The notes under the pieces are model-generated. The model was not told where the DNA came from. It did not search any database and saw only the letters and a list, made by a program, of their open reading frames with translations. DNA of 64,000 nucleotides from the NCBI GenBank assembly GCA_011109175.1, contig RDEW01000016.1:484811-548810 (forward strand), in the 5' to 3' direction. Of this stretch, positions 14,193 to 60,778 are shown in pieces (the first letter of the stretch is position 1; the number at the start of each line of letters is the position of its first letter). The DNA comes from Dicyema japonicum. Its lineage: Eukaryota; Dicyemida; Rhombozoa; Dicyemidae. The translations under genes were made by a program, and so were the position numbers.

Positions 14193-14410
14193 TCAATCAA
14201 ACTTTATTAAAACACAAAAATCAATCAAAATGACCCCCGCCGACATAATTGAAGTTGCGTTGACTTTCACGATAGCAACAGAGAGAAGCCACCGAGTCTC
14301 ACATGTGTCGTGGCTTTTTAATGTAACCAGGCGTCCCAGCCTCTTTAGAAAACGAAGTGATGTCCTGCTTATTTCTTCAGTTGTCTCAACTACTATGGGG
14401 CAGAGAGGTA
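14193..14410 (-). mobile_element. RLE-type element 3' fragment
   Basis: The minus strand encodes VVETTEEISRTSLRFLKRLG, then ETRWLLSVAIVKVNATSIMSA. This aligns with the C-terminus of the intact copy at 44354-45283 (METSGSYSPSTLEFFGRLGN ... ERRWLFERISLAILRGN). It appears to supply the last exon of the adjacent host gene. Confidence 0.6.
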
Positions 14411-14772
14411 ACCGATTGTGTAGCTCTTTGTATTTCTTCTTCGTTTTCATTTTCAATCTGCCTGACAAGCTTATTTCCTTTCTGAATTAGTGTCAGTAGT
14501 CCTTTTCCATAACCTGATATGGTATTGGGGGCAAGTTCTTTAAGCACCACTAAAACAAAGTTAAAGTGGATGACATTATACGAGTAAGTTGTCCATAGCC
14601 ATCTGGCTCACGGAAACTGATATATTGGGATCGTCGACGAAGGATATGCTATTAAAGGATGCTGTTTGATCAAAAGTCTGAGCGAAGGAATTGAAAAAAA
14701 GAAAACCTTCTTTGACTTGTCTTGATAGCAGCGGATTGATCTTCTGCATTGAGGCAAATACTGACGTGGTGA
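14369..14772 (-). CDS. Unrecognised multi-exon gene (3' part)
   Basis: Exons on the minus strand: 14772 or further upstream to 14582, then 14549-14514, 14481-14413 and 14389-14369 (stop). Introns are 32, 32 and 23 nt. The 32-nt introns contain TTTAACT and GACACTAAT near their 3' ends. The first exon contains MQKINPLLSRQVKEGFLFF and continues FVDDPNISVSVSQMAMDNLL; the protein ends EEEIQRATQSLRQLKK. The frame is open throughout once the introns are removed and otherwise meets several stops. The phrase LLSRQVKEGFLFFNSF recalls the V-domain of BRO1/ALIX proteins, but this is weak. The start is not resolved (a Met at 14748 or an upstream exon). The last exon and its acceptor lie inside retroelement sequence. 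Confidence 0.5.
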
Positions 14773-14995
14773 CTCTTCAGTCTTTTAGGCCTCTGTCATT
14801 GACCGTCCAAACGTGGATTAAACACGTGGAGATTGAGTTCACAACCTCAACTACTAAAGTTAACTACTTCTAGTCTTTATCAGTCAAATCAGGCACTAAA
14901 AGCGGCTGACAGGTTTGCGCAAATTTAAAACTGTCGAAATTTCGTTGCGACGACATAACGAACTATAATCGAATATAAACGTAACATCGCGAAAT

Positions 14996-15630
14996 ATGTG
15001 CGATATTCACGGAGATTCATTGATGGATGATAGAGTAAGGAAGAAGAACAGACTGGCGGCAACCAGGTACAGACAAAGGGTGAAATCGAAGATTAGGGAT
15101 CTAGAACATGTATTAGTGTGACTTATATTAGGAATGGAAGTAGTCTTACGATCCTTTTTAAAGTTATCATATTTTTTTAATAATTATTTTTACGTTTTAT
15201 TTTTAATATCTTCCCAGAGATAAACTTCGTGAGATTTAAAGACACATGCAATTACGGTAGCACTAAAATAAACGTCACAGTACTTGTGACTTTTTTTTTA
15301 AATTTATTATTTATTTTAAGTAATAAAAAAATAAAAATTTATTAGGCAATTAAATACAAAAAATAACATTTAGAATTACTGGCTGTTCTTATAACCGAGA
15401 ACGTAATTCTCCTGACGATTTGGAAAGAAATACGCTCGTTACCAGAGAATTAAAAGGAGGAATATTGCAAAAAACTGAAGGAAGTTGTTTTTAAGAGGTT
15501 CTTGGAGGATGTTCTCGCGGGGAAAGAGACGACCCCAGTTGACCGTGAGAAGATCAGATCGATGTCGTACCTTGAGTTTGTGGATTACATTAGAGCTATT
15601 TTCGACAATGCTTATTCATTCCAGTTTTAA
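14996..15630 (+). CDS. Small ATF4-like bZIP transcription factor
   Basis: Exon 1 (14996-15109) encodes a short leader and a basic region KKNRLAATRYRQRVKSKI, in which N..AA..YR matches the DNA-contact residues of bZIP proteins; AATRYRQ is typical of ATF4. A 347-nt intron (15110-15456) follows, and exon 2 (15457-15630) begins in the same frame with the expected amphipathic helix EEYCKKLKEVVFKRFLED and ends NAYSFQF. Total length is 95 aa. It should bind DNA as a dimer in the nucleus, but the zipper is short and poor in Leu heptads. The intron is long only because it holds a repeat also present at 24.8-25.1 kb. The gene is divergent from the gene at 14.4-14.8 kb, so both may share the region 14773-14995. 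Confidence 0.7.
15127..15443 (+). repeat. Dispersed repeat, copy 1 (inside bZIP intron)
   Basis: About 315 bp are collinear with 24826-25140 at roughly 90 percent identity by eye. It carries no recognisable coding sequence. Confidence 0.8.
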
Positions 15631-15880
15631 CCTTTTTTGGTCTTCTTTTTTGGGTTAATGTGGTTAAAATAGGATTGTTTAATTTACCCCTTCACATGTT
15701 AGCATACATTAAGTTGTTCAAAGGGTAGGACTTGACGTTAGGGGACTTGAATGACAGTAAAACCTTTTTTACATTTGAATAAAAATTCTAATTAATGCTA
15801 ATAGAGATGAGTAATTTAATTATAAGACACGTGGTAATTGTGAGTTATTAAGAGACGGGCATTTCTGGTAGATTGGAAGC

Positions 15881-16370
15881 ATGAACTATAAATTATGTAC
15901 GATGACTTTGTTGGCAGTTTTTTGTTTGGTGGATAACTTGTGTAGGGAAGAGTTGAAAGCGGTCATTGACCACGAGGTACCTGAGTATATGAGTATTGAA
16001 CTTACAAATTGGAGGTAGATGGTGAACTGGCATTTAGTCTTGCCTCCAAGAGTTTATGATGTGATTTTTAAAATTGTTAGTTTCATCAGCGATGATGTCA
16101 CTATATCTCGCGAAAGAGATCCTTGGTCAAATGTGACTCCGAGAATGTCGATGTTGAATGTAAAGTTTTGTTGTCGATGAGAACGTTGGACTCAAAGTCG
16201 TAGTGTTTTTGCTAAGAGTCGCTATTGTGCAACCAATGGAATCAGTGTTCAGAATGTTCTGTATGATTCACGTGAGGTTCGATAGTGTCTATCTGTTGGA
16301 GTGAGGAGGATATCACGGGAATATAAGAACAGAAGATAGATTTCCAGGAGGTTGTACAAATAAATCGTAA
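15881..16370 (+). CDS. Unrecognised 125-aa five-exon gene
   Basis: Exons 15881-16014, 16038-16051, 16081-16132, 16166-16300 and 16328-16370; introns 23, 29, 33 and 27 nt, all GT-AG. The spliced frame is open from MNYKLCTMTLLAVFCLVDN to ..FPGGCTNKS with every phase matching. The N-terminus is hydrophobic and could be a signal peptide with cleavage after VDNLC. The middle has KVVVFLLRVAIVQPMESVF, which is also hydrophobic. No family is recognised. Exon 2 is only 14 nt. The evidence is frame closure across four short introns; no homolog supports it. Confidence 0.5.
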
Positions 16371-16603
16371 TTGTCAATCTGACCAAGTCCTCAGTGCCAA
16401 TAGGTTGTGAAATGAAGAGAGTACTCCCCTTATGATGTTTTGTTTGTTCAATAAGAGCATCTTCTGATCAAAAAATATATTTCTATCCACCAGTTACGCG
16501 ACATGGCAAAGAAGTTTCGTCCTCTCAGTAATTGAAAATTTTTCATTTTTAGAGTTTTTTGTACGAGCGTGTATCTCCTGGTCTTTTTTTCTATTATAAA
16601 TGA

Positions 16604-16855
16604 TCATCCGGTTGCCGGGCTAGAGGCCTGAAGGTCGCTAGTTCGAATCCCATACTGTACATTCGGTCGAAGGTTCCACGCATCAATATGCTTTGGCTTT
16701 ACGAGTGACGCCGTCATCAGTGGATACTCACTGCGGAACCGGATCGTCTATAAAGGACATACACTCAAGAAAAAGAAGTGAAGTGCATTCTTTCGTTCTC
16801 CTCATCGACTAGCTATGATAACTGTTCTTTGCTTAAATAAAGTGTGTGTTCTGAA
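16604..16855 (+). mobile_element. tRNA-derived SINE, copy S1
   Basis: The head carries a Pol III B box, GTTCGAATCC (16641-16650), in a tRNA-like context. The body contains GTTCCACGCATC and GTGACGCCGTCATCAGTGGA, shared with copies at 48.3, 49.4-49.7 and 54.5-54.9 kb, and the element ends AATAAAGTGTGTGTTCTG. It lacks the LINE-like tail that S3 and S4 have after this point. Confidence 0.8.
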
Positions 16856-17220
16856 ACCATAAACAGTGTTTACTGGTAACGCGGCTGATCATCCATAAGA
16901 CATGCATTAGGAGTGACTGATAAGTTGCCACAGACTGAATTTGGATTTGGAACCTCTGAAAATTCCATTGACTCTGATTTTTACTGATAATTGACATCAG
17001 CGAGTACTGCATTCCGAAGGCCGTTGATAACTTCGTGCAAACCATTGTCCAGGATTGATTAGCCTCATTGATTTCATATAACTCTGGAGAAAATAATATT
17101 AATAACACAATCAGCTACAACAGTCTTTCCAGAACATTGGAGTCTTAATTGTCCAGATCTCCGAGAACCCACAAGACAAGTCACTCATCTTGTTTAGGTC
17201 GCCTTCGATCTCTTAGAGCA

Positions 17221-17930
17221 ATGGTTCCCAACCTTAAGGTGTACGCGGAACCCTTTTGGGTTAATTTATTTTTTGAGGAACCCTTCCAATTCAATTATTA
17301 GAATTTTCACTTAAAACATAATTGTAATAACCAAAAACAATTTTAATATGAACATCGTTTTGTGCCGGTAGCAATCTGGTGCGGCCGGAAGTATTACAGC
17401 CTCTTTCCTAAAGGAAATCGGAGGAAAATTGGCCCACCGCAAGAAAGACGTGCGGGAAGCGGTCTGGCTTAGGCAAAGAATTGGTATCGCAGTTGTTCGC
17501 GGAAACGCTTACTCCGTGATGTCAGCAGCCGCTTCCTCCATAGTTAATAAATAATATTTTATTGTTAATAAATTTTTGAAATAAAAAAAATATGAACATT
17601 GAGACAACTTTTTTTACCATAGCATAGTTGTATAACGTTAGGAGTTATTGTTGACAACTGTATCCTCATATCAGGGAAGTTTTAGTAAATGTATATATTG
17701 AAAACCCCGACTCGCATAAGTAAGTCGCTGGAAAAAGTACGTATTGGGTATTTTGAAATGCATGATCTCCAATATTAAAAAGGAGTCATTTTATATATCT
17801 GATTTGACGTTGATTTTGATATCACATCAAATTTCTTCCGAAAATATTTCGCAATGTCATCCAAAAAATACCAAATGATCTTTAAAATTTGCGGAACCCT
17901 AATTCTGGCTTCGTGAATCCCCGGGGTTCC
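17221..17930. mobile_element. Non-autonomous hAT-like element with nested insertion
   Basis: The left end, AATGGTTCCCAACCTTAAGG, resembles hAT terminal repeats (CAGTGGTTCCCAA..), and GGAACCC-rich sequence recurs in inverted sense at 17885-17925. No transposase is present. A retroelement fragment is inserted at 17356-17588. Confidence 0.45.
17356..17588 (+). mobile_element. RLE-type element 3' fragment with 11-bp TSD
   Basis: The insert is bracketed by AATATGAACAT (17345-17355 and 17589-17599). It encodes the protein tail AVWLRQRIGIAVVRGNAYSV, homologous to the end of the intact copy at 44.3-45.5 kb, and ends in an A-rich run. It is 5'-truncated. Confidence 0.75.
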
Positions 17931-18089
17931 CCGGAACTAAAGTTCAAATCAAAAATCTTGATTATCAGAATTTTATTTTTTATAGTGGCAACCCTAAATT
18001 TCTAGCGTGTTTCAGAATATTTTTTGTAGTGGTTTCTTACAGAGGATGTGTGAAAGGTGTCTACACCTCATACTTTCATTAATATGTAG

Positions 18090-19190
18090 ATCCCTTCTTC
18101 ATCGTGATCCCAGCCTAGAATTCTTACCCAACTTCAATGACGTTATCATGACCTTAATGCTAAGGACTGTTGATAAACCGTTCCAGCATGGTTTCTAAAA
18201 GGATCGGTCCACAACAAGCTTCCTCACATCCAAGACTCCAGAAAACTGTGTTATGCTCACTAGACGTCCACAAAGCCTTCGAATCTGTGCCGAGGAAGAA
18301 TCTAACATGGAAAATCTACCAATCAGATATCCCTGAAAACCTCAAACGCTGGCTGACAAACTTCCTTAGCGGACGGAGAGGTAGAGTGTGCATTGGAAAC
18401 ATTCATTCTGTCTCCCATTTATTCACAAATGGAGTATCCAAGGGTTCGCCGCTATCACCATTTCTATTCAACCTATTTACAGCTGACATTCCGACGCCGA
18501 ATGGAGAAGTTACCTGCTTCTAGCTTATGCAGGCGACATCGTCTTAGCCTCACGGGATCAGAACACCCAAACAGCGACGGAAAGAATACAACACCACATG
18601 GATCGACTACTCGAGTGGTTTAGTGAAAATCAAATGTCAATCAACACCGAAAAATCTGTTACAGCTCTCTATACCTCGGACAAATAATTGTCGAACAGGA
18701 TAATAGAAGTTACTGCGCAGAAAAGTGGCAAATAATATTGGGTCTGACTTTCGATACACACATGAATTTTACGAGACACGTCACTAACGTGCTGAACAAA
18801 TGTGAGAAGAAAATCAACCTTCTGAAATGCCTGACAGGTCTATGGAAAATTGGATATTAAAACGCTCTACTCACAGTACATCGAACCATGCATATCATAT
18901 GCGTGAACTTCATGGGGACCACTGGCCTCTTATACGAACATCTAGAAAATCTCCGCAACCCAGAAAAGGGCCTTCAAACTAACCGAGAGATGGCATACAG
19001 GGAAAACGCTAAATCACCGACGTCCATGGAGACACTAATCGAAAAAAACAAAAATGGACACCAATGCCAAAAAGGAAGTGCTAGCCCGGAACGAACTTGT
19101 GTATGCTCAAGGGATCAACACCGAGCAAAGATGAGAGCCTTGATCCAATTTGTCGGGATCACTTAGTTTAGTTTTTTCGGTTTAACAGTT
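18090..19190 (+). mobile_element. Jockey/CR1-like LINE RT, decayed
   Basis: Order of RT motifs: LDVHKAFESVPRKNL, RWLTNFLSGRRGRVCIGN, GVSKGSPLSPFLFNLFTADI, then after frame slips YA(D)DIVLASRDQNTQTATERI and SINTEKSVTALYTSDK. The C-terminal region runs to about 19160 and ends in the recurring GGATCACTTAG tail. There are several stops and the Tyr-Ala-Asp-Asp box is split by a frameshift at 18525. Confidence 0.75.
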
Positions 19191-19719
19191 TGGAATTAAT
19201 GACTTTAATGCTAAGGAGTATTCGACTCAGTTAACAGACGAGGACAAACTCAGAACTCGGACACCTTGTCATACTAAACAACCAACACACAAGATGTGGA
19301 ACTCGTCCCGGGGATCCAAACGCATCCCCTGACCTTCCGATATGCTCATCCACGAACGCATTGCTGATTAGCCTAGGTCTCCAGGACCCTACGTCAAAGT
19401 AATGGATCTCTGGAGCGTTTTTCTACGGTTGCCAGTGTCCTAAATGTTAGCGAAATTGGTTAATAATTTAAGATGGAAAGTCCAGATCACCTAATTAATC
19501 AACTAATACGTTTGTTGTCCACCACCTGGATCACTTAATTAGTTTGCTTAACTCTTTCTTTCTTTGTGTTCTTAAGTTAAATAATATTAATCCGTCAAAA
19601 TGGAATAAGCTAGAGAAAATCCAAAGACGAATGACGTCCAATCCATTCCTTGTAGTTGTGGAAACCCCTCCAGTGGAGTGGGATGGGATTAAATAGTTTT
19701 AGATCATTTCATTATTTTC

Positions 19720-26011: not shown

Positions 26012-27783
26012 ATGGTAACCATAAGAGTGATTACTGAAATCACAGAATATTCCTTTACAGTCGAAGAATCTGTATAAACTTTACTAATGTAGACTACCGT
26101 CGAGGAATTCAAAGCGGCAATATCATCTACTGTGGTATTGGTCATGTCCTCATGCATAGGGCATTTGCCCAGAGAACCAACTGCTATTTCACCGTGGACG
26201 ATCTGTTCGGAACTCTGAGGTCCTAAGCTCCCTTGGTATAAATTATTGAATCTTCTAGAATTTAGATTTATGGGAAGACGGAATCTACTTGTACAGACGG
26301 ATTACTAACATAGCGACTGTCCCCCAATCGGCTAGTGGAAGCGTTAGCATTTTTATCTTCCGCTAGTCTCACTTTCTTAATTCCCATTCTGACCCAATAT
26401 TCTTCCAAATATGCAAACGTGTGACATTGTACCAACACTTCATCAAATATGCTGGACGGATATTAAGCTCTTTGGAGGTTTGGTGGGTAATTAAGACTTA
26501 GAACGATAACAACGACGACGACTTCACCATTTATGACTATGTTGATGAGGAAGTCAGACTACATTTATCGAATCTAAAATATCCCTTTGTAGAGAGTTCT
26601 GGTATTAGGTTTTTCCTCGTTTTTATTTCGAGGCCTGGCCAAACCTCATTCATAAATGAGTTATACACCACGTTTTCGACCTACAGCGGCGATTTAACAC
26701 AATAAACGAAACTTTCTACAAAAGTTTGGATGGCGAAAACAACGTAATCTTGATTTTATGAATATCCCTTAATTTAGAGACCGGATGCTGAGACATTGAA
26801 AAAATTCGAGTCACGCAGAGTTCGATTCACCCATTACATTTCTCACGTTCTTCACGGACTAACCGAGCTGGTTGGGATCATGACTAAAGAGGGGGAAGCC
26901 GAATACCAGTTTTCTCTCCATCAGGACCCCTCACTTAACTTAAATGTCTTCTTTAAGATTATTCGTAGACCAGAAGAAGAAATACACTAATTTCCGCTGA
27001 CCAATATTTTAATATGATTACCTACAATCCCATATTTGTTCCTGAAAATGCTGTTATTCTTCATAATCGTCCTGGACTGAACTTGTTGACGAAACAACAC
27101 CTAGCGAGTTCACAGAATTCCGACAAAAAATATGTATTTTATAACCAAATTGGGCATCGTCTTCCTCGACCAGTTGAGGATGACAACCCCCAAAGTACAT
27201 TCGGAATGGATGTGGATGATTCCGTTACAGCGATAGACAAGTTTTTGAGCTGCAGTTCAAGCCATTTCCACGAACCAATAAAAGTTTTTTGAATTTAAAT
27301 TTTATAGAATTATTCATCTCACGTTAATGTCCGCAGGTCTAGTAGGACTGAGATCCTTCCATCAGACTTGCCGATGAGATTTTTCTACCGGTCTCGTCAA
27401 TCGCCGATTTGGATTGAAACCAACAACGATTCGTTGATTCCGCAAGGGGTTTGCGGTTATCTGAAGATAGGAATATTCAGAGACTGCTTATACCATTCCC
27501 ACATTTAATCGGGAAAATCCACAAGAACAGATTTCGCATTTTTTTAGAATTATCTAGTGTCATTAGGTCGCCTGATGCGATGGCGAGGATATTTGTTTTT
27601 TTCATATATTAAATTTATAGCGTGGTATAAGATCTGGGAATACGGAGTTTAGCTCAGATACGGAGACTGATAGTAACTCCACTGAAATCGGGCTACAGCA
27701 AGTGCTAAGCATTTTACCACTTTTAGGGGATTGAAGAGGATGAACACGAAGATCATGAATCTGACACAAACTCTCACTATTAA
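26012..27783 (+). CDS. Ubiquitin-like-domain protein, copy B
   Basis: The N-terminus from ATG 26012 forms a ubiquitin fold: MVTIRVITEITEYSFTVEES, intron 26072-26092 (21 nt), TTVEEFKAAISSTV, intron 26135-26159 (25), GICPENQLLFHRGRSVRNSE, intron 26236-26258 (23), then GNLDLWEDGIYLYRRI. Later exons include VTLYQHFIKYAGRILSSLEV, a 15-nt intron (26487-26501), an acidic NDNNDDDFTIYDYVDEEVR, RRFNTINETFYKSLDGENN, intron 26744-26777 (34), FTHYISHVLHGLTEL, intron 26946-26968 (23), the 92-codon block with VPENAVILHNRPGLNLL, intron 27284-27307 (24), RFFYRSRQSPIWIETN, and a Ser/Thr/Glu-rich C-terminus with a 25-nt intron (27702-27726). Joins at 26300-26420, 26590-26680 and 27500-27620 are unresolved. Only the UBL domain is identified. 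Confidence 0.65.
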
Positions 27784-27789
27784 CGGAAT

Positions 27790-28395
27790 GACATTTTGTT
27801 GTGTTAAATCTATTTTTTGAAATCAGAAATGTGTTATCTGTCTTAGCAATCATCAAGTATGAATATAACGGAATAACCATTAAATATAATTCCTTCCGTA
27901 GTGGAATTCTGCTGCATGGCAACACAATCGTCCTTCGGTTATGCTTTGACATCTGCTTGGAACACCGATGCAAATGTGGTGGGATAGTTGACAGGAAGAC
28001 GTAGTCTATAGATCTTATATTTTTAATGTTGATAGTCGTGGAATATTTGTAGAAAATTGAGAATTGATTTTAGAACTTGTTTTAAATTCCTGAAATATTG
28101 TGGGAGTAAATTTTAGATAAACAAATAATTGCAACTGTTGGAATTGCCTTAGTCGAGGGTAATGGTACCTGTCTTTTAAATTAAATGGCAGTCCTCACTG
28201 AATCGCATGGAATTACGTTTTGTTTAATAAATTGACTTAAGGAAATTAAATAATCTATTTTCCTTAACATTAATTTTTTATAACAAAAATAAATAACTTT
28301 GCGTTATTCCTTCCATAGTAGAACATTGACTACAGTCATAAAACAAACACATCGGCCCAATCAACACAATAACCAATAAATGATATCAATACCTA
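27790..28395. other. AT-rich spacer
   Basis: Nothing recognised. Confidence 0.3.
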
Positions 28396-28399
28396 CAAA

Positions 28400-28613
28400 T
28401 TACACATATAAACGCACGTGGTCTTTCATTTCACAGTCAACAGTCCCACTCCCGTCGTTCAACCTCACACCCAGTGACCATCCAATTCCTCCATTACTGA
28501 ACGGAAAATTGGAAAGGACGTACTCCTCAAAGCAAACTTGTAAACTCAAGTACTCCGTAAAATCAAAGTGGTACTTCAGTGTCCTCAAAAGTTATCCCTT
28601 CAATCCACATCAT
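28400..28613 (-). CDS. Probable 63-aa two-exon gene, unrecognised
   Basis: The minus strand starts MMWIEGITFEDTE (28613-28575), has a 22-nt intron (28574-28553, GT-AG, phase 0), and continues YLSLQVCFEEYVLSNFPFSN and RLNDGSGTVDCEMKDHVRLY to a stop at 28400-28402. Joining the exons gives a balanced, non-repetitive protein. Further upstream exons are possible because the frame is open above the ATG. No family recognised. Confidence 0.4.
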
Positions 28614-31409: not shown

Positions 31410-31604
31410 TTAAGCACTAAATGGGAGTAACCTCTCGTAATCACGAGCCCAATGTTCTGGAAAAGCCATCGCGTCATTCCAGGTTCGTCTTTTTTCTTCT
31501 CCGCAAGGCGTCTGAGAGATAAAAATTGTCTTGTCAAAAAGTAAATGGTAAGACAAATTTACTATTTCATTAAATAAATCAATTTCGTTTCCGTTGATGA
31601 ACAT
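31410..31604 (-). CDS. Small ORF 18 nt downstream of DCTN6
   Basis: A 64-codon frame, MFINGNEIDLFNEI.., ends RTWNDAMAFPEHWARDYERL and PFSA. A 51-nt in-frame GT-AG segment (GTAAATTTGTCTTACC...CTCAG) could be an intron, since removal keeps the frame. The ATG follows TTCCTAG directly, an acceptor-like site, after only 18 nt from the DCTN6 stop. This layout suggests a two-gene transcript resolved by trans-splicing, or a downstream cistron. No family recognised. Confidence 0.4.
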   Translation of the reverse strand: MFINGNEIDLFNEIVNLSYHLLFDKTIFISQTPCGEEKRRTWNDAMAFPEHWARDYERLLPFSA

Positions 31605-31622
31605 ACCTAGGAATAGATCTTT

Positions 31623-32212
31623 TCAGGAGATCAACAAGGACAACAATTTGCGACTACAATTCACATCACAGTATACTGAGTAAGTCTTTTGGGGAGGACA
31701 AATCCGCAGAGTATTTTCACTCCCATATATAACACTTCCATCAACCAGACTCCCATCTACTTTGCATCCACATCCAACATGACAGCTATTCCCCACAATT
31801 ACTAAATCACCCACGTGGGCTAACATTAACTACTAAAATACCCATAATATCGATCATATTACAACTCCCAATAGAGGAGTACACCTCTATATTATGGAAT
31901 ACGACAACCTGCACCAGTCTTTAAGTGATTATAGTTCCCGATAGTGAGGACCGAGTTCTTAGAGCCTCTAAAATTCCAAATAACAAAACCTATTACAAAT
32001 AATCACATTTTCCTCGATTATGTTGTAGTTACCGATGACGACTGGGCCGCTCACAGCTATTATTTTACTGAGAGGGTGGATTATTACATTTGAGCCTGCT
32101 TTATGACTTAGTAATACCAATAGTTATGTTTCCAACCAATTCTGCCTCAGCAGCTATGAATGAAGTTGAATTTGACTTGGTACTAGATTATGTTTTAATT
32201 GTATCACCTCAT
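31623..32212 (-). CDS. DCTN6: Dynactin subunit 6 (p27)
   Basis: Six exons on the minus strand: 32212-32208, 32182-32118, 32098-31990, 31967-31909, 31886-31842, 31819-31623; introns 25, 19, 22, 22 and 22 nt. All phases match and the spliced frame codes 159 aa. The protein is a left-handed beta-helix of hexapeptide repeats: AEAELVGNITI, VIIHPLSKIIAVSGPVVIG, NYNIIEENVII, then HVGDLVIVGNSCHVGCGCKV and DGSVIYGSENTLR. This follows the known order of metazoan DCTN6 ([20 protein letters not shown] in the human protein). It belongs to the pointed-end complex of dynactin, the dynein cofactor. Exon 1 is only 5 nt (ATGAG). The length is slightly under the usual 180-190 aa because the C-terminus is short. 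Confidence 0.88.
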
Positions 32213-36963: not shown

Positions 36964-37414
36964 TCATAGCGTTTGCAGTTGAGACACCTCAGCGGACCTC
37001 TTCTGTACTATTCGCATGTGATTGGCACGTGAGCAATGTTGAAACAAGTCGGACAAGCGATGTTGATTCCGCCTTTAATCCAACTGGAACCTTTACAAGA
37101 GGGAGTCTCCATCTGCCTTGTAGAAGCATAAGTTCGTGGTAGAGGGGGCTAATTCCTTGACAAATTAATGAAGGTCGTTATCATTTACCCATAAGGGCAG
37201 GTTGTTCAACTCAATTTCGGAAGATCTCGTCGGAGTTAACTAAGCAATAGATTCCAAGACCATAAGGTGAAGTAGGATCCACATGATCATAAAAGTTCTT
37301 TGTCCCTCCTTTCTGAATTCGAAGCGGAAGATCCCTGAGCCTTCGTGGCTCAATCTGATAAATCCTGTAAAAGTCGAACGAGTACAGCACGTTAGAAATT
37401 TTGATAGCCCCCAT
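36964..37414 (-). CDS. Unrecognised 120-aa four-exon gene
   Basis: Exons on the minus strand: 37414-37241, 37209-37189, 37155-37097, 37072-36964; introns 31, 33 and 24 nt. The spliced frame runs from MGAIKISNVLYSFDFYRIYQ through IEPRRLRDLPLRIQKGG, GLGIYCLLNNLPLWELAPST and FYKADGDSLLRNQHRLSDLF to SAEVSQLQTL. Each intron removes a stop and keeps phase. Exon 2 is 21 nt. An upstream exon may exist because the frame stays open to 37444 without an ATG. No family recognised. Confidence 0.5.
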
Positions 37415-37826
37415 ATTCGATGTCACAGAAATCTGAGTAAACACATTGCCAGAGTATACAAAGCTGGAGGATCATGAGGAATATACTACGTTTCAGTTCC
37501 TGTAGATGTGCAAACAGTCTGGATCTCGTCTTCAAACTTTTTCACAGATTTAGCTCCTGTAGCTCCTGAAAAGTAATAACTTTTACTGTCGCACTTTTTG
37601 ATTACATTTGAACTAACTTTTGAACCATTTTTTTCCGGCCATTGTCACAAAGACTTCACAACCACGTTTTTTTCAAAAATAGTTGTGTACTTTTGATGCC
37701 GGCCAGGCATTGGGTCTCCTTAGTAAAGTGGATCCAATTACGCCATCAGGCGTAATAAATTGTTTTTATATATTTTATTTATATAATTAAAATAATAAAA
37801 TAAATAATTCAAAAAATCTGTGTTGT

Positions 37827-40488
37827 ATGTCACGGGATAGCAGTTCTTCTAGTTATCGAAGTAGAGATAGATCACATGAACGGTAATTAATAAAACACAT
37901 TGATAGATCAAGAAGGCGTCGTTCTAATAGAAGACATAGTCCTGAAGATAGAAGACAAAGAAAAATCTACTCTCGCAGTCATAGACGACATTCTAAGTAC
38001 AATTTTCTCATTATTGTGTTATAAACTGATTATATTTCTTTCATACTAAATATTATATTTCCAAATAATTATTCTATTCCAATATGGCCTGATATTTCTC
38101 TTATATCCTCTTATTGTGCTTAATATAAAATTCCCATGCTAAATTTTTGTACCTCACCAATTATGCCTAACTATTGTTCCAGGACAGACGAAATGTTTCT
38201 CCTGCTAAATTTGCTATATATAAAATTCCCATGATAAATTTTATTTATCCTATTAATTATGTTTAATTATATTTTGATACATCGTAAGTTACTAATCCTC
38301 AACATTACACTAAATTTATATTCTTTCCACGATGAACGTTATTTAGCCTTCCAATATGGTTGACTACATTTGATAATTCGTAAAATTTTTCTCCTTAATA
38401 TTACACTAAACTTTAATATTTCCATGATAACTTTTGTTTAGCTGACTAATTATGTTTAACTACTTTTTGATGCTTCTTAAAATGTTACTTCAGCCAAATT
38501 TTGTTATACCTAAATTTTCCATGATAAAGTTTGTTTAGCCACCAAATATGGTTAATTACTATTTGATGCACCCTAAAATTACTACGTCTGCCAATTTTAC
38601 TAAACATACAAAATTTCCATGAAAGTTTGTTTAGCTTACCACTTATTGTTAATTACTGATTGATTTTTTTAATATAAAATTCCCATGGTATACTTTATTT
38701 AGCCTACCAATATGCTTACCTGCATTTGTTGCATCTTAAAATTTTTCCTTACCTATCATACTTGTGTGTTTTTTAATAAATATATATCTATCTAATCGCT
38801 TATAGTACTAGTGAATATAGCAGTGAGTATGGTAATCCGTCCAAAATTATAATGCTGCAACAACTTCCTCTTTTTGTTACTGAGAAAGACGTGTGGATAG
38901 TACTTTACCCTTAGATTATGGATAACATGTCTGATCAACGACCTCACTCCATTAGACTCCTCCCAGGTAGTCCGTACACTCATTCAAGGGACCTCACGTG
39001 CCTTGGTTGAATTTAAAAACACTCAGGAGGCCCAACAGTGGATGAAAACATGCAAGGTACCACAACCGTTCTAACACAGGGTACATGGTCTTTAATGGGT
39101 CGGTATGATGTCCCTCTTACCTACGCTGAGTCCCAACCCCTCGAGGAGATGCAGGACTGGACATGTAGTAAGGTAGTCTCCCTTGTGAGCACAGTGTCAT
39201 ATATACAACTTCAAAAAGAGGAACTTTTGCTTTCGGTGTAATATATCCCGCCAAGAATCCTTCGCCAATGTGGGGGAGAACCAAATTGCGAGTGATCCTA
39301 GCAGCAGTACTTCTCGATAATATGTAGCCCTCATACTGAGAGGACTGGATGAATTGACTGATGAGAGTTCCCTAATTTCGGGGTTTTCCAGAATAACCAG
39401 TACCCCCCTCATGAATATGCACGTAGTTAGGGATAGAGACACTCAAAAGTCAAAAGGATTTGCATTTGCCGAGTTATCCACCATCTCAGAAACTTCTGCC
39501 GTGGTGGAAGAGATATCTTTCGGCGGGAAAAGGTTGAGAGCTGATGGAAAAGATGTGCAAGTCGACTTTGCACGTGACTCATTCGACTCAATGTATGGCG
39601 GAGAGTTACAGTAGAATGAATTCGATGGAGAATTGGCCCAAGAAGCCAGAATTCCAGTATTCTGAGGTACTCTTTGGTCTTAGTTTGCGAGGGGTACCAA
39701 GCCGACACGAGCAATGTTGGAGCAGCAGCAGCCCAGGCAGCGATGAATAAGGGGAAGACTAAAAGGAAATCTAGTTGTACTCAGAACCGTGTGTTTTTGG
39801 TGTTATTTGGGGATAGAGACCTCTTCCTATGTTTATGATGAGTCCTCTGGTTATTACTACGACACAGTAAATGGGTTGTACTATGACCCTGTTTCCACTG
39901 TAAGGGATTTTTGTGGTTATTTGACAGTATTTTTACAATCCTATTACTGCACAGTATTTATATTGGAATGGGACCTCATTTGTGCTGCATGTCCAACAAG
40001 AACCTGATAAACAGCCTGAAAAGCCCGCCAAGAAAATTGAATTGAAAAAAGAAAGTGTACAAGTTAAGGCGGCAAAAAAGATCAAACGTGACATGGATAA
40101 GTAGGCCTCTAATCAGAATTCAGTTAAAGTGGACTCTTCCGTGAACATTGATGCTCCAACTCAGTTTGTCCTTCCAGTCGAAAGCCAGAAGGTTGAAATT
40201 GCTGAGAACTTGGTTAATTGGAGTCGTTTAGTGTGTCTTCTATGTAAAAGACAGTTTAATAGTCGTGAGGTGTTAGAAAAGCACGTTAGATTGTCACAAT
40301 TGCATGCGGTTGACCTTTTGATTGATTTCTAGAAAAATCTAGAAGCTTTGAATAAACCACATGGGACGACTGAGAGAGGGAATTTTTTCGATGTATCGGA
40401 CGAGCCAAGTCAGCGACAATATCGTGATAGAGCTAAGGAAAGGCGTGATAAATATGGAGTGTCTGAGCCACCTGGTGATGTTTCCTAA
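37827..40488 (+). CDS. RBM5: RBM5/RBM10-like RNA-binding splicing factor
   Basis: Thirteen exons: 37827-37882, 37907-37996, 38806-38890, 38915-38966, 38989-39056, 39080-39172, 39195-39291, 39328-39592, 39615-39666, 39692-39788, 39817-39899, 39928-40308, 40333-40488. Introns: 24, 809, 24, 22, 23, 22, 36, 22, 25, 28, 28 and 24 nt. The 524-codon frame has an RS-rich N-terminus, RRM1 (about 60-125), a RanBP2 zinc finger (WTCSKC...NFCFRC, about 143-170), RRM2 (181-262, KSKGFAFAEL), an OCRE domain (322-370, DESSGYYYDTVNGLYYDP), and a C2H2 finger (C449, C452, H465, H472), then QYRDRAKERRDKYGVSEPP. This is the RBM5/6/10 order, a nuclear alternative-splicing regulator. Odd points: TAG at 40102-40104 (codon 405) where relatives have Trp (RDMDK-W-ASN), and no G-patch before the stop. 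It may be a recent null allele, a readthrough or a base error. Confidence 0.88.
38040..38760 (+). repeat. Intronic minisatellite
   Basis: Intron 2 of the RBM5/10-like gene is filled with about seven to eight diverged tandem units of roughly 90 bp, each with a CCATGATAA..TTTGTTTAGCC core, then AATATGGTTAAT-TAC and TTTGATGCATC..AAAAT. It explains why this is the one long intron of the gene. Confidence 0.7.
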
Positions 40489-45606: not shown

Positions 45607-45688
45607 TACCAACAGTGGGATTCGAACCCACGCATCCGAAGATAACAGCACCTTAAGCTGCCGCCTTAGACCGCTCGGCCATGTTGGC
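45607..45688 (-). tRNA. tRNA-Leu(AAG)
   Basis: 82 nt on the minus strand with a full cloverleaf: acceptor GCCAACA/TGTTGGT with a G-U first pair and A discriminator, D-arm GCC..GGC with the GAGCGGTCTAA loop (A box), anticodon stem GCAGC/GCTGT around loop TTAAGGT (anticodon AAG), a long type II variable arm closed by TTCG, and T-arm GTGGG-TTCGAAT-CCCAC (B box). The long variable arm and A discriminator fit leucine identity. No intron and no encoded CCA. It looks functional, unlike the tRNA-like SINE heads in the window. Confidence 0.95.
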
Positions 45689-50303: not shown

Positions 50304-51577
50304 ATGTTTAATGAGATAAAATCAAGACAAGAGAAATTGAAATTTAACCAAAATAACTTCTCTTCGCTTTCCCCGTATCTCAAATTATCAATTATAGACA
50401 CATTTGACAGTAACTTCGCTAAATATCATATATTAGGCCAAACTTTGGGATCCTTTAGTTTGACTAGTCACGAAAATCACGAAATTGTGACTTGGATGGT
50501 CAGAAATAGCAACAAACTAACGTTCTCAGCCGACCAATTCAAAAAGGATTTGCTTACTAGGAAAGAAAATTCGTGAAAACGCAAATTTTTATCGCAAATT
50601 TACTGTTTTATGGCCGATTCAGCAAAAAATGGAATTATTAGACGAATTCATAATAAAAGTACTTTAACTAACAACTTAGAACATCGACTTATGTTTAACA
50701 AACGATGTTGGAATTGGAAAATTTAGGGATATTTATGAACATTTTCACAAATTCCTGGACTCGCACGCAATTGAAAAATTTGTTCTCTCAGTTTTTTGAG
50801 AAGACTAGTATAGTCACATTCATAACCCGGACAATCGAGGCAATAAACGGTAATTAATTAAAAAAATTATTAGTTGACGTGGACAACTCAACAACGGAGC
50901 AACTGAGACTGCGAGTATTTTGCCAAAAAGTTATTCATTACCAAGGAATACCAACTGGAGTGGTTCTCCATGGCAACCGCATATTTGTCGCACTGTGAGA
51001 CGGCCAGGCTGCTATACGTAATTTTCGGACCCCTCTATAAAGGTGATCACAGTTGACATGGTAGGACTGATTCTGTGGCATGAAATGACTGAGAGCACAG
51101 CTGAGAGTCTTCAACAGGCCAACGAGCACTTCTCCCAACTGGCAGTGGTTCTTCTGTTTTTCACTCACGACGGGTCGGTCCCACGATAAACCAATGATAT
51201 AATAAGAAATCTAACTCGTAAAATAATTTCACATGTAGTGTTCCCCTTTGAATGGCTGCCTGAGAACTTGGCTTGTCTGTTGAATTTAGCTGGGTATAAA
51301 ATCACCGTCGATAAGCTTGAGGCTGACTTTCTTAGCGGACTTGTCATTGACGTGTCACAGACGATTGCCGCCTTCTTCTTTGTAAACAAGTTTAACATAA
51401 AAGATTTCCAAACGGTTCCTCCTTCAAAGCAGTTGGTTGTTTGCCTTCCTGAGAGACCTGATAAAATCAGCCGAGAATGCTGGAAAGTCATGCCTTAAGC
51501 AGCATTTGTTTGTAGGACTTAGTCAGGTGTTGATTCAAACTGCAGTGGACGCTAAAGACTATCAATTAAGTGAATGA
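50304..51577 (+). CDS. Unrecognised 361-aa nine-exon gene, mainly helical
   Basis: Exons 50304-50498, 50530-50658, 50680-50781, 50804-50849, 50874-50914, 50931-51017, 51043-51173, 51207-51486, 51503-51577; introns 31, 21, 22, 24, 16, 25, 33 and 16 nt, all GT-AG and all in phase. The 21-nt intron contains TTAACTAAC. The product runs from MFNEIKSRQEKLKFNQNNFS through KIRENANFYRKFTVLWPIQQ, KFRDIYEHFHKFLDSHAIEK, LEWFSMATAYLSHCETARLL, LILWHEMTESTAESLQQANE and FPFEWLPENLACLLNLAGYK to VGLSQVLIQTAVDAKDYQLS. It looks like an all-alpha scaffold or complex subunit, with no signal peptide or clear membrane span. I do not recognise the family. Two 16-nt introns are near the physical minimum. Confidence 0.7.
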
Positions 51578-55135: not shown

Positions 55136-55158
55136 TTTAACAACGTGGTGGTCTTGTA

Positions 55159-57390
55159 GTGAGTAATTGTAACATCATGGAGCGTCGTTCATATAATGGA
55201 GCAACACACATTACACCCAAGAGACTGGACACTACATGCTCTTTATGCGGTTATAGTAATGCACGCAAATATGGACTTTTCTGCTCGTCTTGCGGTGACT
55301 TTTTCCACCTTGGATGCATAAAGATGTCTCAGCGGGCTGCATGCTCGCTCTGCCTGTGGAACTGCAGTATCTGCATGGGCACTGGTCGGAAAACCCAGAG
55401 GATCATTCCAAACGAGCACGTCGAACCAAATGAGCCTTTAGACTTCAATGATATGGACAACCTCTTGCTCTTCTTGTCGGATCTAAGGAAAGCCAGGAAG
55501 ATCCCAATCAGGATCCCAAGACCCGTCCGGATTCCCGCGGCTACATGCCTGGCCTCTGCAATTGACTATACTTTCACGTCCGACGACCTGGAGGCCTACT
55601 AAAACTCCTCAGTTTTGCTCGATGGCCCTTGGAATTCCATTTATCGACTCAAAGGAGATCACAGAATACAGAGAAAGCACGACACTTAGGAACTCCCTTT
55701 CCTCAAAAATGAATAAGAACATCCAGGTTTTCTATTTGCATTCTCTCACCAAGACGGAAGTCATGAAATCAAACATTCTGATTCCAATCCTTTGGTTTAT
55801 TTGAATGGCCCGGACAAACTTGGAGAGAGAGTCAACCGCAAACTATGTGAAAGCAACGTCCGAGCGGCGTTGCGCGTCGTCGCCAGCGACGAAACTATTA
55901 TGGCTGCGACACCTAAGGTGTTGGAACTACTCAGACAAGAACATCCATGTCCTCCGGAAAATTACCGCCCATTCGTGCTTCCGGGAATTTTGTCAAGGAT
56001 GACCGTCACCGAAGGCGAAGTGCGACGCGGCACTTCGTCGTTTGCGGCGAGTAGCAGTGAAGGTATCGATGGCTTGTGGCCGGGTCACATCAAGATCTTA
56101 TGGTGGAGGCTACTGCATAATATGGCTGCAACCTTGTCAAGTCAATCACAAAACTGGTTATGCGTATTTTGAACGGAGATATTCTCCCCACGCAAGGGAG
56201 CTTCTTTTCAGTGCACATCTACTGGCCTTCTAAAAAAGCCCGAAGGAGGGGTCCGCCCCATCGCGGTCAACAACTATTTCAGAAGACTGACAGCAAAAAT
56301 CGAATGCACCACTGTCTGTCCGAAAATATCTGAAGAATTTTCCCCCTCCAACTGGGGGTTGGTGTAAGGAACGGATGCGAGGCTGCGAGGTGTTTTTTTG
56401 GACAGAAAGACGAACAGAATCCACACATTGGGGTCAAGCTGGACATTTGCAATGCCTTCAATTCATAGAGGAGGGATCAAATTTTCAAAACTACAAGCAA
56501 ACGAGCCCCGCAACTTATTCAACTTGTCTTCCTCGCTTACGGAACCAATTCTTCACTAATTTTCGGGGACAAGATTATCTGTTCGAGACCGGAGTTCAAC
56601 AAGGGACCCACTTGGTCCACTACTCTTGCGCTATTCATTGATGAAATTGTCCGCTCTATAAACACACAACTAAACCTCTGGTATCTTGATAACGTCACGA
56701 TTAGAGGGCCGTGGAGAAAAGTACACGACGTTCTATCACATGCCGTGCCGGCACTACGAAACCTCGGACTTGAGATAAACATAAAGAAATCGGAGCTAAT
56801 AAACATCACATACTCGGAGAGTGATTTCATCAACGTGGTCGAGTCTTTCAACTCGGTACTACCTGGAATTACTGTCGTACTCAGGGAACGGACATACTTT
56901 CTTGGGTGCCCACTTGACGAAAAGGAACTGCGGAGCCATCTACAGACAAAAGAGGATGAACTCTCCAGAGTCACGGAGAAACTCTCCTTACTCGATAGTC
57001 ATACAGCGTTCTTCCTTTTGAAGAATAGTATCGACTTGCCCAAACTCCTATTGCTCTCCGATGTTCTCCCTGCTTCAGACATCGTGACATCCTCCTTCAC
57101 TAGATAGGACATTGAGAAAATCAGCTGAATTGCTTCTAAACATCCACTTTGATGTGCCGAGTTGGAACCAATGCAAACTTCCTACACGCCTCTAAGGAAC
57201 GGGTCTCAGGTCGGCGCTGGAGATCGCCTATTAAGCATATGTGTCATCGCTCTCAAGTGGAAGCCTTCTGGTCCAAGAAATCCTACGTAAATTGTACAAA
57301 GGCCTGACTGAGGAAGAGAACAAACTTGTGAGGCCAGTAAGAGAGGATATTCAAAACTGGATGCTTAACTATCTTGACTAGTAATTGGAT
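55159..57390 (+). mobile_element. LINE with N-terminal PHD-type finger and RT
   Basis: ORF from GTG 55159 or ATG 55177. Residues C27, C30, C42, C45, H50, C53, C69, C72 with W67 form a C4HC3 PHD-type finger (CSSCGDFFHLGCIKMSQ). After frameshifts the RT follows: SSSEGIDGLWPGHIK, KKPEGGVRPIAVNNYFRRL, an F-N-S-I-E-like motif, VQQGDPLGPLLFALFIDE (frame-split), a catalytic box WYLDN, LRNLGLEINIKKSELI, TYFLGCPL, and the thumb SLLDSHTAFFLLKNSIDLPK. The thumb matches HTALFLLKRSLNIQ of the 44.3-45.5 kb RLE-type copy, linking the PHD 5' half to the RLE 3' half. It is dead: many frameshifts, and the second catalytic Asp is Asn. Confidence 0.75.
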
Positions 57391-57475
57391 ATCAAGGAAA
57401 AAAAGGGTACCCGGATGAACAGTCCAGGCCAACCGGTGGACTGATAGTTATTTCAATATATTTTCGTGTTGTTGT

Positions 57476-58600
57476 GGACGGACGCACGTTATTATGATTA
57501 TGCCTGTTGTGAGAAAAGCACCTGAAAATAATTTTCCCACTTCGAAGAAAAAAGTACCAGTCAAGTCAACTGAGATGTGTTCGTCTTGTCGGCTTGTCAG
57601 AACTCGTAAGCGTGGGGTTTCCTGCTCTGCTTGTGGAGATTTCTTCCACCTCAGGTGTATCAAGCTATCCCAAGCCGCAGCGAGCGTGCTTGGAGTATGG
57701 CACTGCCAGTCATGCTTCAGCTTATGCAGGGAGGTTCCCCGTGCCCGTGCCAACGTTAACTCTCCCGTTAATTACCCATCAACCACGGACCCAGAAACAT
57801 TCATACGTCTCATCTCTGAATTACGTTCTTCACGGACCATCCCTGTGAGGATTCCCAAAGCCATACGACCTGTTTCTGCGGAGGCCTTTTCCAAAACGAT
57901 TGAAGATGCTTTCCGGACTAACGCAGTACATGATTGGATGCGCTTATTCAGTTTTGCGCTTTCCGCAAAGGGACTTGATCGGGAGGATCACGGAAAGGAG
58001 TCTCTCGCTACCATTATAAGGACCAACATTCGTTTTTTTTGGGAGGTATCCACATCCCCAGTTGTCCCATGGCTTTTAACAGTACGAGGGATACACGTGG
58101 TCATAACGAGGAAGTAGAAGGGCTCCGTCTTAAGAGAACTGTCCGGTCGAAGTTAATCGAATGTGACACCCGCGCAGCCATCATGGCACTTTCCTCGAGT
58201 GGATTACGAAAACCGACTCCAGACGCCTACAATATTTTACTGAACAAGCATCCACTGCCACCCCAAAACTTACGCCAAGTCGCTCCCGTATCCGGAGTGA
58301 TTCCTCTGATTGCATCAAACGATGAAGTTTCCTCGCAATTTGGAATTTTGCTTTTAGTAGCAGTGGCGGGGTCGACGGAATGAGACCTGGCTACCTGAAA
58401 GATCTAACCTCTTTGTCCGTAAGAGACCAGGGACTTCGTCTTACGAATTCAATTACTTAACTTATGAACCGGATCATGTCTGGAGTTCTTCTCGAAGTTA
58501 TCCTCCATGTCCTGTTCTTGACAATTTGATAGCCTGTGATAAGAAGGGAGGCGGTTATTTGCCTCTTGGTGCAATTCCGTACCATTCGAAACTCTAAATT
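57476..58600 (+). mobile_element. Second PHD-type LINE, 3'-truncated
   Basis: ORF from ATG 57494 (or Met3, MPVVRK): C29, C32, C44, C47, H52, C55, C71, C74 with W69 is a PHD-type finger nearly identical to that at 55.2 kb. An open frame of 207 codons continues to 58117, then with frameshifts the region before the RT (GVDGMRPGYLKDL) and a start of the RT fingers (LIACDKKGGGYLPLGAIPY). It stops near 58600. The PHD ORF itself is intact to the first frameshift. Confidence 0.75.
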
Positions 58601-58604
58601 ATTT

Positions 58605-59035
58605 GCATTTTGTTATTTTATTTATTAAAATACATGTCATTTTAAAACACAACCTTGCTTGGCCGTTTTCGATAACCTTTTGTGTAAATTTTTTGACACC
58701 TCAAGAAATCCACTTATCTCATTCATTTCTCAAATATGATTTGAATGCAGAATTAACTCTTACATCCCACGGTTGAAGATATGGAATTGTTTTCGCAGGC
58801 GAGTCAGTTTTAGTCCTCAAGAACACAAAGAATATAAATATCTGAGTATTACTTAAATTCTTAAGTTCATTTTTATGCCCGATACAAAGCGACAAATTAC
58901 TGAAGACAAACGTAGAAGAGCAGCGTTATTATGTAAGACGTCTTTAAATGAAGGGATTTATGCTATTCGCTGCTAAACCACCACATAGGCATTGGCTTCA
59001 GATCTTGGTTTATGAGCAGATCTCAGAATGAGCAA
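58605..59035. other. AT-rich spacer
   Basis: Nothing recognised. Confidence 0.3.
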
Positions 59036-59039
59036 AGTG

Positions 59040-59165
59040 AAGAAGGTATCTACACAAGTTACATCCCAAACCAATGATTTTCTCAAAAACTGTCACAAAG
59101 CTCGGGAATATATCTCGATGGCTATTAACAGTATATTGCTTTGCTATTCAAGCGCCTAGATTAGT
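59040..59165 (+). mobile_element. RLE-type 3' fragment, strongly eroded
   Basis: The phrase REYISMAINSILLCYSSA corresponds to RERISLAIVRGNSMAIQ of other copies. Confidence 0.45.
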
Positions 59166-59467
59166 ATTTGTTTCATTTGATATATTTTATTAAAAAAATA
59201 GTAGCATAAAAAAGAATAACGACTTATGAAATTTAATAAGTCTAAATTTATTTGTGCACATTAATATTAAAATAATATTTTGGAATTCATACTGAGTAGG
59301 GACAAAATGAACTGGTCTCTAGTAAAAATAATACATCTGGCTGTGAGCCAATAGAACTGACACCTCTCAGCTGCAATCAAAATCAATAAGTGAATATTTT
59401 AAGTAAAATAAACTATTAACCCAATTTAACCAATAAAGAATCATAATTAGCTTAACTAAAGAAATGG

Positions 59468-60015
59468 TTAGGTGAAGAATGATTTTTTACGAGATTTCAT
59501 TTTGATATAAATATTACCAATGACGTCAGTAAGTATTATAAATAGTACCAATGACAACACTAGTCCGACAACTCCACACACGATTCCAATTATTCGATGT
59601 GTCGTCAGTTTTTTTATGGATTCACTTTCAGACGATATTAGTTCTTTAAAACTTATTTTATCTAAAATTCAAACAAATTTACTCACCATCTGCAATATTA
59701 TGATGTTTAATCGTGGTTTTTTTTCTTTAATTTCAGTAGATGATTGTGTTTCAAAGCATCCTTCATCTAAAATCAGACAGATTTATTAAAATTCTCCAAT
59801 AAATTCAAAAATCAAATCATTGCGGAAAAATTGAAATTTGAGAGATGAAATTTTGATAGTCACATTACTATAGCTTTGTGAGATGATTCCACATTGATAA
59901 AATCCTCCCATTTAGATTTGTTTAAATTGTTTTTGAAGTGAAACGCATTTATTTCTTCTATACCCAACACAAACAGAAAAATTATGAATATGATATTTAT
60001 TCTCAAATTTTTCAT
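59468..60015 (-). CDS. Putative type I membrane protein gene, exons unresolved
   Basis: On the minus strand an ATG at 60015 starts a classic signal peptide (MKNLRINIIFIIFLFVLG). The C-terminal exons read DEGCFETQSSTEIKEKKPRL, a 21-nt intron (GTAAATTTGTTTGAATTTTA and G), NKISFKELISSESES, a transmembrane helix RIIGIVCGVVGLVLSLVLFI, and a short basic tail KMKSRKKSFFT with the stop at 59468-59470. The middle join is unclear: a long intron from about 59965 to 59768 in phase 1 would work. The fragment KSKWEDFINVESSHKAIV resembles the N-terminus of the neighbouring lectin-like gene. It may be a separate paralog or the stalk and anchor of that gene. Confidence 0.45.
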
Positions 60016-60124
60016 ACGCCATAATAGTTATTGTAGCATGTTTACTAGTCAATACATATTTATAGTAACTATAATAATATGTTAAAATATTATAATCATA
60101 ATCACTGAAATGCTCATCTGTTAT

Positions 60125-60778
60125 CTAAGAATCAATGTTCACGTGTACAATTTTGTTATTGTCAATATATGAAATTTTGATATTTCCACTTATTACTCCT
60201 CTGATCCTCTTTTCTTTAAATAAAAACCAAATCGGCGTATTTGGGTCATTATTTGGGTTACAGTCGTTTGCTAAATAAATCTTAATTAAAACCTTTTCCA
60301 GTAAAATAATTCAAAAAACCATTATCGTGATATTGCAACTTGTTTGAATAAATTGTAACAGATAAATTATTCGTAAATCTAATATGAGTAAAACCACATC
60401 GGTAGTAATCCCCATATTTAGTTTGTGGTCTCTTTGTGATATTTTTATAATGTTTACCACCTTAAGTACAACAAAAAAGTACCATAAACAATTTCTGTTA
60501 TTAAGTCAATAGTATAAAACTCATCGTAAAAGTGTGGAATAAGTTTAAAATTCATATTATCTAAATATAAACTATAATCTCCAATAGTTTTCCAGTCATC
60601 TATATGTTGATCCCTATTTAACATCCATAAACTAGATTCCTAAAGTTAACGAAATATATACTTTAGAAGGAGTTTTCAGAATTGCATATGAGTCAATTAC
60701 TATATATCTCCAATCACATTTTATTTTAACGATTTTGCTGAAAAGAATAAATATTACAAAATGAATAGTTCTGTTCAT
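60125..60778 (-). CDS. Secreted or luminal protein, L-type-lectin-like
   Basis: Exons on the minus strand: 60778-60662, 60639-60483, 60460-60293, 60270-60125; three introns of exactly 22 nt. Product 195 aa: signal peptide MNRTIHFVIFILFSK, then CDWRYIVIDSYAILK, ESSLWMLNRDQHIDDWK, and RCGFTHIRFTNNLSVTIYSN ending at a second Cys 38 residues later. In the L-type lectins of the ERGIC-53/VIP36 family a pair of Cys with almost the same spacing flanks a similar R....(x)..v.Y....L pattern, and the N-terminal W...A.L....P...S..W order is shared. The match is by pattern only, and calcium- and sugar-binding residues are not clear. The frame may continue past the stop through an 18- or 24-nt intron. Confidence 0.5.

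Follow-up and report, generated by a model that had tools for sequence, protein, structure and literature searches.

Genomic introns of 21–28 nucleotides in a dicyemid: ordinary GT–AG ends, a uridine-rich interior and an adenosine at a fixed distance from the 3′ end

The window analysed in this study is a stretch of 64,000 nucleotides (nt) of genomic DNA (contig C62:484811–548810, in an assembly of 64.67 Mb and 191 contigs), and it carries protein-coding genes that are interrupted by GT–AG introns of 21–28 nt. A trained gene model placed 11 genes with 70 introns in the window, while in 30 third-order Markov shuffles the same model averaged 0.7 genes (maximum 3) and 3.4 introns and scored no higher than 8.6. 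Four short-intron genes lie far above this null, namely two paralogs with a ubiquitin-like domain (UBL-A, 38.6; UBL-B, 34.9), an RBM5/10-like gene (30.4) and DCTN6 (17.1), all of which belonged to the training set of the model (14,564 codons). An earlier interpretation of this DNA, referred to here as the sequence-only reading, had counted at least ten such loci, a number that was not established, as only these four short-intron genes are clearly above the shuffles.

The RBM5/10-like gene, which encodes an OCRE domain (match 1.9e-13), is located on the plus strand (38852..40488) and contains 11 model introns of 21–36 nt, of which five are verified by homology. It has 58 homologs, with a best expect value (E) of 5.9e-55. 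The verified GT–AG introns, all on the plus strand, measure 23 nt (39057..39079, spliced alignment to the RBM5 relative P0001), 22 nt (39173..39194, spliced alignment to P0001 and to a second relative, P0030), 21 nt (39307..39327) and 28 nt (39900..39927), the latter two being placed both by splice-rule-free and by GT–AG-imposed homology alignments, and 24 nt (40309..40332, GT–AG-imposed alignment). The gene model is not free of errors here: a 21-nt model intron at about 39006-39026 is coding by alignment, and the verified intron at 39057-39079 is absent from the model. At the end of the frame (40475-40488) no G-patch match was seen, and the aligners proposed a long intron there, of 245 or 1797 nt; either the gene is cut short there or it runs on downstream. 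Immediately upstream of the gene is a diverged tandem repeat whose unit measures 96 bp (38219-38664).

DCTN6 (dynactin p27) is encoded on the minus strand (31410..32212), with introns of 22–25 nt and an uncertain 3′ end of the model, and it matches PDB 5afu_U with an E of 1.9e-17. Two of its 22-nt GT–AG introns, both on the minus strand, are verified by homology (32096..32117 and 31820..31841). Two more of the same length and strand are placed by the gene model and by eye (31968..31989 and 31887..31908), the aligner having chosen a 19-nt variant for the former and a 16-nt variant for the latter, each with poor flanks. As the sequence-only reading stated, the RBM5/10-like gene and DCTN6 are certain by homology.

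The ubiquitin-like paralogs are both on the plus strand. Paralog A (8036..9893) has 13 model introns of 21–36 nt and a PF00240 match of 1.1e-8, with no Pfam match beyond the ubiquitin-like domain, and paralog B (26012..27783) has 13 model introns, 11 of which measure 21–34 nt. Many of the model introns are equal or near-equal in length between the two, and their support is the model score. The two genes share an N-terminal ubiquitin-like domain, show a mean DNA column identity of 89% and lie about 16 kb apart.

Frame closure is cheap. On three shuffled windows, a laxer, permissive gene model produced 13, 10 and 7 spurious intron-bearing genes containing 65, 98 and 48 introns, and frame closure alone is therefore weak evidence for introns. 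The same cheapness favours an artefact, in which the gaps would be assembly errors or pseudogene frameshifts that a search for GT–AG closed by chance. Intron lengths taken from a gene model also depend on its prior: under a flat 10–100-nt prior with learned signals, 49.0% of the 347 model introns in the curated genes measured 20–28 nt, while under a prior centred on 23.5 nt the share was 84.2% of 330, and 191 introns were common to both. Therefore, the length claim rests on homology and on the peak under a flat prior. Two other designs were dropped: self-trained gene models whose intron lengths were flat up to 400 nt expanded without control into intergenic DNA, and a codon-only gene model was too weak.

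In the homology analysis, protein sequences from other organisms were placed on the DNA without any splice rule, gaps of at least 9 nt being allowed at a fixed cost. The queries of the ten alignments were RBBP4, PLRG1, PRP17, BTRC, GNB1 and DCTN6 rows from PDB alignments, together with P0001; LIS1 was dropped as a query, its PDB search having listed a WD-40 repeat protein first. These alignments gave 74 gaps, of which 28 with poor flanks were removed before dinucleotides were counted and 46 were well aligned on both sides. At the exact gap length GT–AG slides into place in 33 of the 46 without having been asked for, compared with 12 of 46 for the next-best dinucleotide pairs, and all but one of these 33 gaps (32/33) are 21–28 nt long. 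In a second round GT–AG was imposed, and Pax6 and P0030 were added. This yielded 53 introns with good flanks, 45 of which measure 21–28 nt (median 23) and are spread over 11 genes on 8 contigs. The remainder was set aside: a 20-nt Pax6 intron that is coding by the alignment with Dicyema acuticephalum Pax6, two doubtful introns of 30 nt (the gene model reads coding sequence there) and 31 nt (the gene model uses 25 nt there), and five long gaps of 51, 97, 150, 245 and 1797 nt. The central claim of the sequence-only reading, that ultrashort GT–AG introns are real, is upheld by the 45 verified introns.

The Pax gene belongs to contig C13, where it was detected with PF00292 and then rebuilt. Searched against about 5.8 billion proteins (7,939 candidates scored), it has Pax6 of D. 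acuticephalum as its top match (E 1.4e-113, 52% identity, 93% query coverage), followed by a shrimp Pax6-like protein (E 9.2e-82, 56% coverage). With a Pax6 identity of 52%, the source is a species other than D. acuticephalum. Judged by this clear best match, the host genome is that of a dicyemid, and the earlier comparison with dicyemids (mean intron of about 26 nt) proved to be the correct lead. Dicyemids are tiny parasites of octopus and squid. The assembly also resembles the published D. japonicum genome in size (67.5 Mb there, 64.7 Mb here) and in GC content (36.7% there, 37.4% here, the latter over the 264 kb of genome used) (PMC6736024). The D. acuticephalum Pax6 was reported as cloned both as genomic DNA and as complementary DNA (cDNA) (PMC2222250). 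When it is aligned without splice rules to the ortholog described here, GT–AG fits without a change of length in 4 of 10 gaps (24, 23, 25 and 31 nt). The artefact is thus excluded for the verified introns, because they occur in 11 genes on 8 contigs and because gaps of this kind are needed to align a dicyemid Pax6 that is known as cDNA; with the tight gap lengths and the unprompted GT–AG fit also against it, we consider it next to impossible as an account of the short introns.

Short introns are found throughout the genome. Introns of 20–30 nt occur in the central gene models of all 20 of the 10-kb stretches examined, which come from 13 contigs, a count to be read with a model prior that favours this length, and the curated genes carry about one intron per 44 codons (330 in 14,564). 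No deficit of lengths divisible by three was seen in the verified set, in which lengths modulo 3 (0/1/2) are 14/17/14 of 45; gene-model sets are unable to test for it, because stop-free introns of such lengths are invisible to them.

The lower end of the length distribution is sharp. Under a flat 15–34-nt prior and without a signal model, introns of 15–20 nt were counted 7, 8, 3, 9, 8 and 4 times, rising to 15, 40, 42, 31 and 24 at 21–25 nt and returning to 8, 4 and 8 at 32–34 nt, and the 15–20-nt counts are at noise level, matching the background on the far side of the peak. Introns of 15–16 nt, close to the limit known from Stentor coeruleus, had been claimed for this DNA, and some do occur in gene models that lack outside homology. 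However, the homology set with good flanks holds no verified intron under 21 nt: of the introns with acceptable flanks only one measured 20 nt, and D. acuticephalum Pax6 aligns to that segment as coding sequence. With flank quality disregarded, the 41 GT–AG-compatible gaps include a single one of 20 nt. An extension of the introns to 15–16 nt is therefore very unlikely, and the claimed ones are most likely mis-joined frames.

The splice sites carry little consensus. Donors are hardly more than GT, with GTRAG at the start of 4 of 203 gene-model introns and 3 of 45 verified introns, and positions +3 to +6 of the 5′ site hold 0.82 bits in 47 introns, before a small-sample correction of about 0.18. 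No length peak emerged from a consensus scan for GTRAG-like donors with CTAA-like sites, which in retrospect is explained by the rarity of both motifs. In composition, the interiors of the verified introns (n = 45) are 47% T and 17% G, while exonic GT…AG decoys of the same lengths (n = 983) are 26% T and 25% G. The T content (0.473 against 0.264) separates introns from decoys with an area under the curve (AUC) of 0.89, compared with 0.73 for the match to U1 and 0.65 for the match to U2. This U-richness is not merely that of AT-rich non-coding DNA, since GT…AG pieces outside predicted genes have only 31% T.

A second feature is positional. An adenosine is present 7–9 nt from the 3′ end in 40 of the 45 verified introns, compared with 23.6±3.3 in shuffles (maximum 33 in 1000), and the count becomes 42 of 47 against 24.8±3.3 with the doubtful 30- and 31-nt introns included. 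The same excess is seen in gaps detected without any signal rule (36/41 against 21.0±2.9) and in the gene-model introns (172/203 against 125.6±6.5 in shuffles). Between −15 and −4, no position outside −7 to −9 was enriched beyond a z of 1.6.

The introns could instead be recognized by a conventional CTAAC-like branch motif that pairs with U2, and the sequence-only reading had pointed to CTAAC, CTAAT and CTAAG near the 3′ ends. U2 does retain its canonical branch-recognition loop, the best complementarity of the introns to it is slightly above that of shuffles (4.80 against 4.34±0.11 of 7), and a few introns, such as the one at 39057-39079, carry a motif of this kind. However, CTAA[CTG] near the 3′ end is not enriched: it occurs in 8 of the 203 gene-model introns, where shuffles give 5.4±2.2, and in 2 of the 45 verified ones, and in D. 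acuticephalum the most frequent branch hexamer is reported at only 4.88% (PMC2483917). Recognition by such a motif is unlikely, and the motif did not survive as a general property of these introns.

The genome encodes the checked parts of the major spliceosome. Eleven matches to U1 were found, and the copies inspected keep the ACUUACCUG 5′ end intact; there are also 25 matches to U2 (best 155 bits, with the canonical GUAGUA branch-recognition loop) and 10 to U6 with the canonical ACAGAGA. At least six of the U2 matches (best 153 bits) are clustered within about 111 kb (C115:851074-962467). SF1 is encoded with both its KH and its helix-hairpin domain, and a U2AF65-like gene contains three RRMs; there is also a zf-U1 (U1C-like) match. 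At locus L058 lies a PUF60-like gene, labelled by eye, with two RRM-like stretches and a UHM. Among the parts checked, which for the major spliceosome comprise the U1, U2 and U6 RNAs and the few protein genes named here, the machinery is not visibly reduced.

Human SPF45-dependent short introns offer a precedent for a different protein reader, as they are likewise spliced with too little room for a pyrimidine tract (PMC8363638). Those introns are reported to be shorter than about 100 nt, and the tested example has 56 nt. Introns of 22 nt are too small for a normal pyrimidine tract. On the other hand, genes for both the U2AF65-like protein and SF1 are retained, and no separate SPF45 match was obtained: a UHM query for SPF45/RBM17 matched in only two places, the PUF60-like model and the U2AF65-like gene (labels by eye), although a gene split into exons can escape such a search. 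We regard an SPF45-type mode of recognition as improbable, if less so than the branch motif.

Our preferred interpretation, to which we give a probability of about 0.92, is that these are ordinary U2-type GT–AG introns of a dicyemid mesozoan that have probably shrunk genome-wide to 21–28 nt and are excised by a major spliceosome conserved in the parts examined. With little room left in the intron, geometry and composition would take over from sequence consensus, and an intron would be defined jointly by its GT, a U-rich and G-poor interior, an adenosine kept at −7 to −9 and a floor of about 21 nt. The positional adenosine would be the branch point, and a 22–24-nt intron would then form a lariat loop of about 13–17 nt with a tail of 6–8 nt. 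A U2AF65-like protein, a PUF60-like protein or both may read the U-richness.

Several observations weigh against this interpretation. Among the 46 splice-rule-free gaps, 13 do not fit GT–AG at fixed length; seven of these reach it only with the length shifted or changed, and six reach none nearby. In the Pax6 alignment, 6 of the 10 gaps (583, 11, 36, 36, 27 and 11 nt) do not fit GT–AG, and these fall mostly in divergent parts. Some longer GT–AG introns with good flanks exist, for example one of 97 nt, and a single ruler does not cover them all. The verified set is small and drawn from genes picked for their conservation, while the 203-intron set is gene-model output and includes some false calls. 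For the machinery, even the best U1 match falls just short of the Rfam cut-off (69.0 bits, with the gathering score at 69.5), and no single exon of U2AF65 matches at the family cut-off.

The genome also encodes parts of a minor spliceosome, together with candidate AT–AC introns in conserved genes, at loci outside the window (L048, L049, L053, L054 and L056). Of the two minor small nuclear RNAs (snRNAs) searched for, U12 gave one match of 85.4 bits (cut-off 53) and U6atac one of 37.0 bits (cut-off 33). A strict U12-type intron pattern had 8 matches compared with 5 for the reversed control, and it is not enriched by count. Three of the eight (L053, L054 and L056) combine a ATATCCTTT donor, a TCCTTAAC branch site and an AC end with a coding frame that is continuous across the junction, and only these three are put forward as candidate AT–AC introns. 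Removal of a 52-nt candidate in a geranylgeranyl pyrophosphate synthase gene gives a joined peptide that aligns ungapped over 73 residues to PDB 2q80 (E 3.1e-9), with only 14.3 bits in Pfam, under the cut-off. For a 58-nt candidate in a PI-PLC Y domain, the downstream flank by itself reaches 64.4 bits and the joined peptide 75.1 bits, and 5 of the 23 matches in the PDB list (best E 1.2e-10) span the junction, the others covering the downstream side. For a 48-nt candidate in an ArfGAP gene, the joined peptide reaches 25.2 bits and the upstream flank by itself 14.7, neither of which attains the cut-off. Homology on both sides of the junction is clear for the synthase and weaker for PI-PLC and ArfGAP.

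The candidate U12-type introns (48–58 nt) seem to be about twice as long as the U2-type introns of the same genome. We tentatively propose, with slightly less than even confidence, that the branch adenosine is picked by its distance of 7–9 nt from the 3′ end within a U-rich segment, rather than through a motif, and that a minor spliceosome persists in the same genome with AT–AC introns that stop at about 48 nt. If this is true, one animal would have two spliceosomes with two different minimum intron sizes. No paper on the minor spliceosome in dicyemids was found; the only one with both Dicyema and U12 is PMC2483917, which was consulted in part. A pan-eukaryotic survey (PMC10639083) never uses "dicyem" in its main text and excluded introns of less than 30 nt.

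Very short introns have been known in dicyemids since 2007, and their lengths, weak 5′ sites and lack of a branch consensus were published between 2007 and 2019. Reported values are a mean of 26.2±1.9 nt for 16 introns of D. acuticephalum (Aruga et al., 2007; PMC2222250), a median of 27 nt in Dicyema sp. (PMC6543705, where Ogino et al., 2010, Gene 449:70 is cited) and a mean of 38.2 nt in D. japonicum (PMC6736024). Ultrashort dicyemid introns are thus already in print, and the genome studied here agrees with these accounts in its class of intron length, its many introns per gene and its Pax6 ortholog. It differs in the median of 23 nt of the verified set, and three features are quantified here: the abrupt increase at 21 nt, the adenosine at −7 to −9 and the U-richness. 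The published D. japonicum mean of 38 nt may have been inflated by the minimum intron size of the gene finder. Dicyemid 5′ sites were described as the weakest known (0.5 bits), with no branch-point signature (Irimia and Roy, 2008; PMC2483917); the very weak 5′ site and the absence of a branch motif are seen here too, but a branch-like adenosine stands at −7 to −9 despite the missing motif. Neither an adenosine at a fixed distance nor a dicyemid minor spliceosome was found in print, and both are modest additions to the published picture.

A further parallel is Stentor coeruleus (PMC9505925), in which introns are AU-rich with a weak branch consensus, the branch adenosine has a fixed place and the snRNAs are kept, much as in the dicyemid, where the adenosine is a proposed branch point. 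Stentor introns measure 15–16 nt, with a loop of 10–11 nt and a tail of 5 nt, whereas the dicyemid introns measure 21–28 nt, with a proposed tail of 6–8 nt and none verified at the Stentor length. The human A complex occupies 79–125 nt (figure quoted in PMC8363638). Dicyemids keep SF1, a U2AF65-like gene and normal snRNA recognition sequences, yet their introns are far shorter than this footprint, which makes them a test case for how a spliceosome finds introns with almost no consensus. In practice, dicyemid genomes will be mis-annotated by gene finders that accept no intron below a limit of 30–50 nt.

Elsewhere in the window, four further gene models score above the null (20.7, 13.2, 11.6 and 9.9) with few introns of 21–28 nt, and by eye they partly resemble mobile-element frames. 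A model of 270 amino acids at 50610-51577 scores 5.3, under the null maximum, and the models at 28278–28613 (2.8) and 37211–37710 (1.8) are indistinguishable from chance. A search for phage gave no match, and a transfer RNA gene for leucine (tRNA-Leu, AAG; 45607-45688, minus strand) is the sole tRNA gene detected in the window. Reverse-transcriptase-like and PHD-like retroelement frames were recognized by eye at 4847-6138 (minus strand), 18188-19402 (plus strand) and 55177-58597 (plus strand), in line with the reported repeat content of 49% in D. japonicum.

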